Source: Tetracentron sinense
Lineage: Eukaryota > Streptophyta > Magnoliopsida > Trochodendrales > Trochodendraceae
Assembly: GCA_015143295.1 (NCBI GenBank)
Contig: CM026562.1
Coordinates: 8,088,041 to 8,152,040 of the forward strand
Length of the DNA: 64,000 bases
Direction of reading: 5' to 3'
Shown here: one piece after another, positions 51,301-57,300 of the stretch
How positions within the stretch are numbered: the stretch's first letter is position 1
Layout of the letters: every line of letters starts with the position of its first letter
Program-made: the position numbers and the translations under genes
The notes under the pieces: generated by a model
Databases searched by the model: none
The model's input: the letters and a program-made list of their open reading frames with translations, nothing else
Told to the model about the DNA's origin: nothing

Positions 51301-54300
51301 TGAGCGAAATAAACCTTGGGAGCTTCAAAAGCTAGAATGATTTGAAAATAAATGACAAACTTGCCAAAAGAATTACATACCCTTTTGAAAACCACTCATT
51401 GAATTGCTCATGGCTGTCAAATAAAGTGGGCATAATGAAATGGAGAAGGGCCCACAGCTCTGCCATGTTATTCTGTATGGGTGTTCCGGTAAGAAGCAAG
51501 CGGTTTCTACAGTTAAAACTCAGCAATGTCTTCCACCTTATACTGCAAAACCAATATTCAACAGAGATATGGATGAGAACAGATGAGATTAAAAAGCATG
51601 AACTATTCACAGTTAAACAACTTTTGAAAAAATTTTGATGGCTACATGCTGCACACTTATTTGGACGAAATAAGGCAAACTTTACATGGCATACATACAT
51701 AAGAGTTAAATGTATAGTGTACACCTCTGTATGTATGTACTGTGCACACTGCACTACACACATAAGTATACTAAAGATCTTTAACTAAGTAGTAATAATA
51801 AATAGTTATATTATAAATAAAAATGGAAATTGATACAATTTTTAAACAAATAGAAATTGTTAGATTTTATATGAGATTGCACCAGAAGAAGACTAAAAAT
51901 TATCGATCAAAAAACTAAAAAGAAAGCTAGAAATATAGATTTCAATTTATGCAAGTTATTAACAAGAAGAAAAGAAAAGGTCAAGACTAGTTTATCATTA
52001 AACTTTAAAACACAACTTTACCATTCGGAAATACTTTTATATAATTTTCTGATTTTGTTTCACTTTTATAGGTAGCTGGTATTATTTTATTCCAAATACA
52101 ATAACCTATGTTTCCCAGACACGGAAACGGGTGTCGACTTGGATACGAGATGCCGGACACAACGAACCCCAAAAAGTAAGGGGACACGGGAGGATGTTTT
52201 AATTTTTTTATTTTAAAAACTATTATACTTTAAATGTTATCAAAATAATACTCTAAGATTGAAAAGAAAATAAATTAAATATAAAAAAAATTATTGCAAA
52301 CAACACTAAGTAATGTATTTCAAAGTACAATTCATCAAACAATATAAATAAAACATGAATTAAAATACTTAATATATTAAATTAATGAAGTAATGAACAT
52401 ATATTAACGCTAAATGTTAATGCTAATCTCAAGGAGGATTAATCTAAAGTGGTGCTGGACGCACGCGAACCCAATATTTGATGACTGCAACCCATTATTA
52501 AAAATTATTGACTGCACACCATTAAATTTATAAATTATTTGCACAAGCCTACACACCAATTATAATGGAAACAAGATATGAAATGAGAAGTTTACTGAAC
52601 TAGCCTAAACAAGATCCAGAGAATGTTAAAAAGATATGTGCAAGCTAAAAGGCTTTGTCAGACCCGGAGCCTAAACTAAAACCTTTTCCTCTAAGATCTG
52701 TCTGTGGACTTGTCGCACATATACTGAAAATCAGATCCTCCTACACCAGACATTTTTATAATGAGATGATGCTAATAATCCATCTATTCCATTCTTGTGA
52801 ATGGTCTAAAAAGGCATGACAAAGGAATCCAGAAAAAGAATCTGTAAATTTTCCCAATGAGATGATGCTAACCATCCATATATTGCATTCATTTGGGTGC
52901 AAGCTATTGGAGTATTTAGCATACAATGCACTGAACTTCCCTACAATTCACTATATACAATTTACCAAAGGGACTCACAGGTAACTGCAGAATTCCCACA
53001 ACTCATTGATCATTGAGGCGGCAAGTTATGAGCATTTCCATGAGGATTTGTTTAGCTTATACTGTCCTTGCTATTTTTTTATTGGTAATTAACAATTATA
53101 ACAGTCCTTTGTCTTAACACCTTCATATCACTTTCCTCATTGGATTGTGTGGAATCCCGGTATTCCCTTGGATGTATCTTTCTTTCTATGCAATGCTACT
53201 TTGAATTAGATTCTCACTTGTGATCACTCAAAAAGTAGAGGATGGAGGATTGTGAATCGTTGTTTTCTATGTCTTCATGCAGAAGAATCGGTGGATCATT
53301 TGCTCTTGCATTGACTTATTGTGTTTGGAATATGGGATCATTTCCTATCCTGAGTAAGAGTGGATTGGGTCCTGCAGTGCCCGGGAGGTGATCTGGTTGG
53401 TTCTTCTTGGAGCAATATCATGGACAATATAAAAAAAAGAAAACAACAAGGTATTTGAAGATTCTCTCTACCCCAACTCGCATTTGCTCACGCATTAAAT
53501 TGCTTGCTTTAGAGCATCTGCAAGCTCTTGTGTTCAGTATAGGGGTTATTTGCTTTGTTTTGAATCTTCCATTCTAGTGTTTATGTGCTTGTAAACTTTT
53601 AGCTTGTTATAATTACTTTTGTACATCTCTTTTGTTAATATAATCTTTGATTATCGATTAAAAAAAATTATCAAAAGAGATATAAAAGCAACCTAAGTAC
53701 ATAACAAGTAAAGAGTTTACAAGCACATAAACTCGGGAGAGAAGAAAGCAAAAAGAATACAGAAATTCCCTAGACTGAAAAAAAAAGCAGCCACTACTCA
53801 ACGAAATGAAACTCAACCTAGCAGCTCTCTTAGATCCTCCCCTGCTCACCGAATGGAATACCACTCTAAGGCAAGCATTTTGATGTGTGAGCAAAATGTG
53901 TGATGAAGGAGAGAGTTCTCAAATTCTCTATTGTTTCTCTTTCCATATAGTTCACAATATGACTCCAAGAAGAACCGACCAAATAGCGCCTCTAGAGAAA
54001 GGATATACCCCCAAATCCAGAACACAAATATATTGTTCCTGCTATTTGCATAGACGACTTCGTCATTGGTGTCGGTACCAATGTTGGAGCCCTTGCAGTT
54101 GATGGACTTGGCGATGGAGTTCTATTACAAGCCCCAAACCAGGATTTTGATTTTCTAAGGAACACGTCCTTCAATTTATTACAAGGTTGCAGAATGCGAA
54201 ATACAAAGACGATAACTAAGAAACAAAAAGCGAAAGAAGAAAAATGAATTAACCTTTGATTACTGGCTTTGATGCTGGTTTATTATTGTATTAACTGTAG

Positions 54301-57300
54301 ATTGTAAATGCATCAGTATGTCTCATGCCCATCTTGTGGCCAGATAGTGTTCATAGTTCAAAATATCGGTATCGAGTGCCATATCGATAAGTTTAAAATA
54401 TAGGATACGTATCGGCTTATCAGACCATATCGCATGAATACGGCGGAAAAAATCAGGATACGACGAGAAACGTTTGGATATGCAAGAAAAAACTTGGATA
54501 CCTTACATAAACTTTTTTTAATGCAAATATAAGCTAAAAATAAACTAAATAAAAGTCTTCAACTATGTTTATAACCATACCTATGAGAGTTAAGAATTTT
54601 ATAACTTAAAAAAGGCAATATATGAAAATACAAACCATAATCACTTAACCAAGTATAGGAAATATAACCGAGACATTAAAAACTTACATTCAATGAATTA
54701 GATAAGAATATTTGAATTACAACCATAAATTATAAGCTTGAATGAAGCTCTTTTTTATGTTGAATTGTTACACTGTTAGTTGACTTTTTGACCATGTAGA
54801 TGAAAATATGTTTTGAATACTAAAATATGAGACTTTTTGCCGAACTTTTGGGTTTTAGTAATTGTCATGCCCCGAAGATTCGGAAGCGTGATTGGGTGCG
54901 ATAATATGATAAAAAGATGGTGGTTAAGCAAGAAAAGAATACCTTTAGTTCCCCAATTAATAAAAGTAATCAATTTTATAAGATTGTGCCTACAGCTATG
55001 TGCAGCCAAACCTAACAGTCCGTGTTCAGAAATTCATAACTCAATGTAGGAAACTCTAATCTAAATAATTCTTATCATTTTGAAAACTAGACTAATGATA
55101 TTTTCTAAGAAAAATATTGATCACGTCGAAAAATATGATTGAGGTTCAATTAAAATATTTTGATTTGAAAACAGAGTGTTGGAAACTGTAACACAGCACT
55201 AAACCACTAGTAGAAACTTAATTACTGGGTTTTCATTTTAAGGAATCTAGGCTTGAGACCTGTGGAATTTGAAAATAGACTCACATATAAATGTTTTCTC
55301 AAAATATCAAAAACTTTCCATGAGTACAACAATAATAATATTTCAGTTGAAATCAGGCCATGCGTAGCAGACCTGAAAATCCAGAATTGTTGTACCAAGG
55401 TAGAAATTCATCTAAAAATAGTAAATGTGACCAGATTTGCGTGAAACTTCCCAAAATTCATATTTAATAATTTAGTAAGTTATGGTTAAAACATCATTCA
55501 AAACTAAATTAATTTAAAATTATTTACTTAAATAATATTTTATGTAAAAAAGTTGTACGTATCAAGCAAGGTTCAAAAAAACGGTTTCGGACACCATAAC
55601 GGACACGGCCGAAACCATTACGTAACGTCGTTACGTAACGGTTTCGGCCTTTACAGAGTTTTTTTTTGGGCTTAAAAAATAAAAAAAATCACAATAAATA
55701 GAAAAAAAATAAAAATATAAGTAGGTGTAACGTAACGGTAACGGGTAACGGTGTTCACCGAAACCGTTACGTAACGGTTTCGGCGTTTTTTAAAACCATG
55801 GTATCAAGTATGGGCTGTGGATCCTAGTGTAAATAAAAGGAGAAAAAAATTAATTGAAATATGCCTCGTATCGGGCATGTATTGGGCATATCGGGCTCAT
55901 ATCAGTCCCGTATCTGCTTCAAACGCCCAATACGGAGTCAATATAGAGGAGTTTTTTTTCAGCGTACCAGTATACCGAGTAGCTCCAAATAGAATACATA
56001 TCAGCTCATATCCACCGTAGTGTACCGGAATTTTAAACCAGGATAGTGTTTGACCTCCAAGAGACAATTGCTCAAATATGAGAGAAAAAAAACATCACAC
56101 TTGCCTAGTGTTTCAATAATGCTCGAAATTCAAATGCTCTTTCAATCTGTGATCAGAAGACAATGATGAGCAACATGTGTTTCTTTTAAGCAAATATAAA
56201 CATTGCTCCCTTTTTTGAATGATAGATCACAATCATGGGTGTGTCGTGAATGGGCTAGGAGAAATGGCTGATGTAGATTTTGGACATGTAGCTGGTGCAG
56301 CTGGAAAGATTGACCTCTACATAGGGAAGATATATATTTCTCTCCTGCTCTGACATGATTGAGAGTTAAGATTAAACCATTTATTTTGAGAATTCCAACA
56401 TTTGGGAAAGTTGACACAAGAAGGAAATATTTCTTCTTTTATTGACCTACAGTCAACATTGTATTACACCACAACTAAAGAACAAATCATTAGGAAACAT
56501 GAGAACAGAGGACTTTTCCGCCAAAACCGAGATGGGATTGTTGGGGTGCGGCTATTAAAGAAAGTGAAAATAAGACTTACAAATGGGGTGCAGTCATCAA
56601 ATATTGGGGTGCGCCTAACACAACCCTTAATTTATTTTTGTGGCCCAAATTTAGCCCATTGACACCTCTCTCTCTCTCTCTTATGTTATAGGGATCAGTA
56701 ATTCCTCCCCTTTCTCTATTATTTGTTATTGAAAACAAATGGATTGTAGCCCCCCCCCCCCCCCCTACCTACCAGATTCTCCTTAAATGATGACTTGGAA
56801 AAAATTTTTGAAATTTACGCTAATTATATGCCGTTGTATTTTTTTTTTTGTATCATAAACAATAAAGTTTAAGGGCATCAGCCATATCAGCTTGTGCCTA
56901 AAATGTACATATTCTTCTTATATGAGTCGCAACAGCAGTGTTTGAGGCGTGCCCATGTCCACGCGTTTTGACAAGGGACATGCCTATTGTCTTAAAGAAT
57001 GCGTGCAACATAGACAATAATATTACTTTATCCATACAAGGACGTGTCAGCATGTCAAACTTTCTGTAGTTGCTGGCTAAGACAAGATGTCAGTGCCCAA
57101 TTGGAAATGAAAAGGCAGAGACAGTTACAGCAAATATGTTCAATTAAGGCAATCTACTTCCAAGAAAGTGATCATACTAAAAAAAATAAGATGATAAGAC
57201 TTTGGCTGTACATCAACTGGAAAGACATTTTTTTTTTCATCAGTAACTTGAAAGACAAAGTTGATACCTGTTTGAACTTTTAATTGCCTGGGCTTCATCT

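Follow-up and report, generated by a model that had tools for sequence, protein, structure and literature searches.

The element described here resembles the Pack-MULEs of rice and other species, in which genomic gene fragments are captured between inverted repeats, and belongs with the wider group of Pack-TYPE elements, the paper on which is reportedly that of Gisby and Catoni (2022). Both are compared below with a locus of Tetracentron sinense. Such elements are non-autonomous plant terminal inverted repeat (TIR) transposons carrying a host gene fragment, include CACTA, hAT, PIF, Mariner and MULE types, and have a target-site duplication (TSD) of 8 nt in the case of hAT (PMC8903248). Transduplicated fragments with intronic as well as exonic gene sequence are described for grapevine class II elements, with capture reported beyond MULEs and CACTAs (PMC2528002), and template switching during gap repair is described for animal Pack-TIRs (PMC8277862). 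The window analyzed here is a 64,000-bp stretch of the genome (C12:8088041–8152040; 1.16 Gb in 1479 contigs), in which pieces of an HDS/ispG (GcpE) gene lie inside an intron of INO80. With high confidence, we regard this locus as a DNA transposon of the Pack-TYPE (transduplication) kind, now decayed, that holds a piece of HDS in antisense orientation in the INO80 intron, as judged from sequence comparison within one genome.

HDS Fragment and Its Parent Genes

HDS/GcpE pieces were found on the plus strand of the window with the NCBIfam HDS models. Searched singly, the first piece matched at an E-value of 6.7e-6, the second weakly at 0.031, and the third (exon d, 56226–56329) at 5.7e-9, while the joined pieces matched positions 459–574 of NF001912 (HDS, 606 positions) at 1.1e-33 and NF002534 at 8.8e-33. 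A search of solved structures at E up to 1 gave 6 matches, the top three being HDS/IspG enzymes. Pfam scans of the short single pieces were mostly too weak, with GcpE appearing for 2 of the 7 pieces, at E-values (6.4e-5 and 0.096) that fell short of the curated cut-off. A genome-wide GcpE profile search gave 10 matches, consisting of five on contig C7 (5300961–5309501), four on C1 (11623993–11629679), and one at C8:6705283–6705396; the pieces in the window itself were absent from them. When window 53996–54350 was used as a DNA query, four genomic places were obtained: the window, the HDS loci on C7 and C1, and the C8 fragment. The initial annotation had named the pieces as HDS/ispG from the letters of the window and proposed that the parent gene be sought in the same genome; the joined match bears out the name, and the parent was found on C7 and C1.

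The two HDS loci (C7:5301519–5312848 and C1:11621686–11633000) are 97.9% alike across 11.4 kb on separate contigs, a pair that may be a duplication or an assembly duplicate. Within the captured stretch they are identical (896 bases compared). Profile positions 1–39 are matched at C7 and unmatched at C1, and the C7 match to them lies upstream of the point where the two loci become alike, which means that the start of the gene may be missing at C1.

Window segments 52888–53076, 54029–54351, and 56041–56479 align with adjoining stretches of the parent (C7 offset 11738–12640, 903 bases) at 81–86%, exons with exons and introns with introns. Because the 903 contiguous parent bases are matched with their introns included, the window fragment is, on these alignments, a DNA-level copy. 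Four exons with their intervening introns are contained in the captured stretch (Table 1), and the corresponding parent exons read stop-free from LFEYL to GKIDLYVGK. The initial annotation had proposed three exons with introns kept, starting at 54053. That introns were kept is confirmed by alignment to the parent HDS introns; the exon at 52903–52980 had been missed, and the start was placed too far to the right, since parent homology begins at about 52888.

INO80 Host Site

The exons flanking the host intron match INO80 on the minus strand, and the carrier with its HDS fragment is opposite to INO80 in direction, in agreement with the antisense placement first suggested. A second INO80-type gene was found at C11:37347243–37350414, with an intron of approximately 1.2 kb at the matching place. 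The stretches matching window 57154–57044 and 52103–51819 are approximately 30 bp apart on C11, and the 4.9 kb holding the element is without a counterpart, which indicates that the INO80 duplicate on C11 lacks this block and is, by this alignment, free of the element. Window 52104–52438 and 56635–57043, which lie outside the element, likewise have no C11 counterpart.

Table 1. Features of the HDS-carrying element and its host intron (window positions).
Feature	Position	Strand	Remarks
INO80 host intron	57267–51543	-	5725 bp; splice junctions read by eye
Left carrier TSD TTAATCTA	52439–52446		7/8 alike to right copy
Left carrier TIR (AAGTGGTGCTGG...)	52447–52509	+	inverted match 52470–52509 / 56569–56608, 85%; outer end fixed by eye from family TIR
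Carrier interior, left part	52510–52890	+	77–80% DNA matches at C10, C6, C8:15910306, C23
Left capture junction ATTTGG	52891–52896	+	letters as in parent HDS; siblings TTTTGG (1/3) or TTTTGA (2/3)
HDS exon a	52903–52980	+	78 bp as in parent C7; donor GT kept, acceptor AG lost; acceptor placed by eye from parent's preceding exon
Left TSD of LINE-like block TGTCCTTGCTATTT	53063–53076	+	right copy TGTTCCTGCTATTT at 54034–54047, 12/14 alike
LINE-like block, two tails tail to tail	53077–54033	+ to ~53655, then -	in first HDS intron
HDS exon b	54052–54211	+	160 bp in the parent also; acceptor AG and donor GT both changed to AT
HDS exon c, first part	54314–54351	+	acceptor AG to AT
MULE-like element, 1.69 kb	54352–56041		splits exon c; TSD GATAGTGTT 54343–54351 / 56042–56050, 9/9
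Small inverted-repeat element nested in MULE-like element	55567–55800		TSD GTATCAAG 55559–55566 / 55801–55808; inverted repeats I5–I7; element and TSD read directly from sequence
HDS exon c, second part	56051–56115	+	in-frame TGA, +4 insertion, donor GT to AT
HDS exon d	56226–56329	+	1-base deletion, donor GT to AT
Start of next HDS intron	56330–56488	+	ends at approximately the right capture breakpoint; parent homology stops at 56479
Carrier interior, right part	56489–56568	+	common to C8 copy and sibling elements
Right carrier TIR (GGGTTGTGTTAGGCGCACCCC... on minus strand)	56569–56626	-	inverted match to left flank, family TIR
Right carrier TSD TTAATTTA	56627–56634		7/8 alike to left copy

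Carrier Element, Sister Copy, and Siblings

The fragment is carried by a TIR element (52447–56626) whose family has a high copy number and shows target duplications of 8 bp. A carrier with ends just outside 53.88–56.40 kb had been expected; it does exist with its TIRs, the true ends lying far to the left and slightly to the right of that guess, and the supposed left end near 53.88 kb falls inside the LINE-like block. The flanks of the HDS stretch are mutual inverted repeats in both the C8 copy and the window (38 and 40 nt, 87% and 85%). A query with window 56480–56645 gave 924 first-look candidates, 40 of which were scored and listed, and the TIR pattern at up to 3 mismatches found 33 matches versus 0 for a reversed control pattern. 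For the TSD test, 21 distinct elements with paired ends were obtained from 50 loci (L018–L067) and, their termini being fixed, compared with a shuffled control. An 8-bp duplication was perfect in 8 of these 21, with a mean identity of 0.71 versus 0.47 for the shuffled pairs, while lengths of 6, 7, 9, 10, and 11 bp stayed near the control (0.42–0.52 versus 0.38–0.43). MULEs generate duplications of 9 to 11 bp. In the carrier family, mean identities at 9, 10, and 11 bp were 0.46, 0.42, and 0.48 (shuffled 0.41, 0.38, and 0.40), and perfect pairs numbered 1, 0, and 1, so that its 8-bp TSD distinguishes it from Pack-MULEs.

To the left and to the right of the HDS stretch, the C8 copy and the window also share the carrier flanks, and parent homology ends at the matching base in both (plus or minus 1). 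This identical right breakpoint is best explained by a single capture behind the C8 and C12 copies, and the breakpoint and carrier flanks together indicate that fragment and carrier were moved or copied as a unit. Fragment-free relatives were also found. Window 52545–52900 matched 27 places, the window counted, 12 of which were fetched (one being the window) and four compared in detail (C10, C6, C8:15910306, and C23). These four siblings hold the carrier interior at places without an HDS match in the genome-wide profile and DNA searches. Those on C10, C6, and C8 also hold the right carrier part, with approximately 200–350 bp between the two parts, where the window has HDS.

A local tandem duplication was observed in the carrier interior at 52770–52895 (AATGAGATGATGCTAA... 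twice), both copies of which match the siblings at one place. Another element of the family, approximately 890 bp in length, contains a 157-aa open frame (L035:1799–2269), for which Pfam gave nothing at E-values up to 0.1 and which is possibly another captured gene piece.

Later Insertions and Decay

The window HDS copy is broken at two places, and at both the parent overlaps represent target duplications. The first break holds a block that is present neither in the C8 copy nor in the parents. Its left part (53100–53655) is of high copy number (3006 first-look candidates, 40 scored) and encodes a 34-aa stretch, 22 residues of which are identical to an open reading frame (ORF) bearing a zf-RVT domain; a reversed partner lies at approximately 53667–53984 (inverted repeats I1–I3). 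On account of this match and the reversed partner, 53077–54033 is read as two LINE-like tails, although Pfam gave no match in three ORFs of the block itself. The second break, at 54352–56041, had been taken for an HDS intron. This was ruled out, as it is a transposon with a 9-bp TSD and joining the sequence across it restores exon c, the translation of which was read by eye. This insertion is likewise missing from the C8 copy and the parents. Its left part (54354–54900) gave 4764 first-look candidates genome-wide, 40 of which were scored, and 38 of the 42 listed matches start at query position 1–4. The name MULE-like is proposed from the 9-bp duplication.

Kimura two-parameter distances were 0.137 between window and parent, 0.151 between the C8 copy and parent, and 0.181 between window and C8 copy. 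Differences from the parent amounted to 52/449 in exons and 57/431 in introns for the window, and to 44/362 and 65/442 for the C8 copy, where the exon class, like the 450-nt "parent exon" string used below, starts with 8 bases (GGGTGCAG) of the end of the preceding intron; the figures are those originally computed, and these bases alter them little. The similar window-parent divergence in exons and introns gives little sign of constraint on the window copy. Changes of the G-to-A or C-to-T kind account for 25 of the 55 assigned to the window branch, and those of the opposite kind for 12; on the C8 branch, the two kinds number 33 and 10 among 67. The copy lacks the open frame and intact splice sites of a functional HDS/ispG gene, having a stop, frameshifts, insertions, and lost splice Gs. 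From its divergence, the TGA, and the frameshifts, it is a decayed pseudogene.

Elsewhere in the window, an 887-aa open frame at 24940–27603 has motifs of what we take to be an NB-ARC leucine-rich resistance gene, and a tandem array of 33/66-bp units (CACCTTGTGATCCGTGGTTGAGACCAATGGTCT), with approximately 10 copies of 33 bp, lies at 18818–19158.

Discussion

The locus shows TIRs shared with a family, a target-site duplication, and part of a host gene that has its parent at other loci (C7, C1), as described for Pack-TYPE elements. The proposal of a DNA-level capture and transposition into the INO80 intron is upheld by the parents, the matching introns, and the TIR carrier with its 7/8 duplication. 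The event is of a known kind, here represented by a further Pack-TYPE element, one that captured part of HDS. On this reading, a non-autonomous element of the TIR family exchanged approximately 200–350 bp of its interior for a 903-bp piece of a nuclear HDS gene, together with the introns in it. This replacement, together with a few letters shared at one junction, points to template switching during gap repair as the probable route of capture. Thereafter no fewer than two copies of the element existed, one on C12 and one on C8, and the C12 copy, in the INO80 intron, was broken by the LINE-like block and the MULE-like element. Most likely, it is an inert filling of the intron and is removed from INO80 transcripts by splicing.

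The likeness to Pack-TYPE elements extends to the 8-nt TSD given there for hAT (PMC8903248), and the later breakage by insertions is a difference from them. The capture of intronic and exonic sequence by a plant element is shared with the grapevine cases, which differ in source gene, element family, and host site (PMC2528002). Among the matches listed in a search of open-access literature, no title or abstract start named a transposon-captured HDS/GcpE fragment.

Several observations weigh against this reading. A perfect 8-bp TSD is missing from 13 of the 21 paired elements; in the family, a duplication of 9 bp is perfect in one element and one of 7 bp in two, and several elements have no clear target duplication. 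The TSD of the window carrier is itself imperfect (7/8), and its left terminus AAGTGG differs from GGGTGG, with which family termini mostly start. The C8 copy starts 81 parent bases further in than the window copy and has no clear TSD by eye. The apparent microhomology at the left junction is short and incomplete in 2 of 3 siblings. A family transposase was not found in a Pfam scan of 5 of the ORFs listed for 60 loci (at least 110 aa, at most 2 per locus), which was not a full search. The superfamily assignment therefore rests on TSD length. The 8-bp TSD suggests hAT; the termini do not, as the TIR starts with GGGTGGTG, unlike the typical hAT start.

The splice sites of the window copy also speak against simple decay of such an element. 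Of 8 exon-adjacent splice Gs, 6 were lost, versus 33 among the remaining 193 Gs of the parent (binomial tail 5e-4), in a test that was post hoc and made on one copy; the count was 5/7 before the exon a acceptor was recognized. The lost positions are 52902, 54051, 54212, 54313, 56116, and 56330 (three donors G to A, one acceptor G to A, two acceptors G to T), and 52981 and 56225 were kept. In the similarly diverged C8 copy, 0 of 7 splice Gs were lost versus 40 of 180 other Gs. This excess is the single feature poorly predicted by simple neutral decay and is treated as a curiosity because the test was post hoc on a single copy. One could speculate that HDS-strand splice sites were removed preferentially, the strand being or having been transcribed across the INO80 intron with selection on the processing of antisense HDS-like RNA; such selection would link INO80 and HDS, and we consider it very improbable.

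Other origins can be weighed on the same evidence. Double-strand breaks are at times filled with copied DNA, and the genomic nature of the match, introns included, would suit an HDS piece pasted directly into the INO80 intron by segmental duplication or as such a filler, with the TIR ends as unrelated neighbors. This origin is very unlikely and largely refuted by the C8 copy, in which the identical right breakpoint is accompanied by the same non-HDS flanks; furthermore, the flanks pair as TIRs with a 7/8 target duplication, and siblings elsewhere hold the same carrier interior. A processed, mRNA-derived HDS retrocopy might be imagined from the several adjacent exons and the nearby LINE-like sequence, but its introns are kept and aligned to the parent introns and the HDS end has no joined poly-A tail by eye. 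It is refuted by the introns, and the chance that we leave to it is vanishingly small.

A regulatory role can also be considered. Within the intron, the strand read in INO80 transcription would be antisense to HDS. That transcription could give HDS-antisense RNA, or paired transcripts could give small interfering RNAs tuning HDS, possibilities that the initial annotation had raised together with chimeric transcripts, and the parent exons are matched exactly over two blocks, one of 25 and one of 27 nt. Regulation by small RNAs has been observed with Pack-MULEs, according to one source (PMC8277862). Against this, the window element contains 12 of the 430 21-mers into which the 450-nt parent string divides, the C8 copy is the better parent match (25 of 430), and the divergence is consistent with decay. 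We give such a role very little credence, and a function is not needed by anything found here.

The decayed Pack-TYPE element leaves knowledge of HDS or INO80 unchanged. One genome contains its parents, fragment-free carrier relatives, a second copy with the fragment, and a homologous site that lacks the element, which makes it a well-documented case of gene-fragment capture, and the comparison with the siblings suggests that this capture replaced part of the carrier interior.

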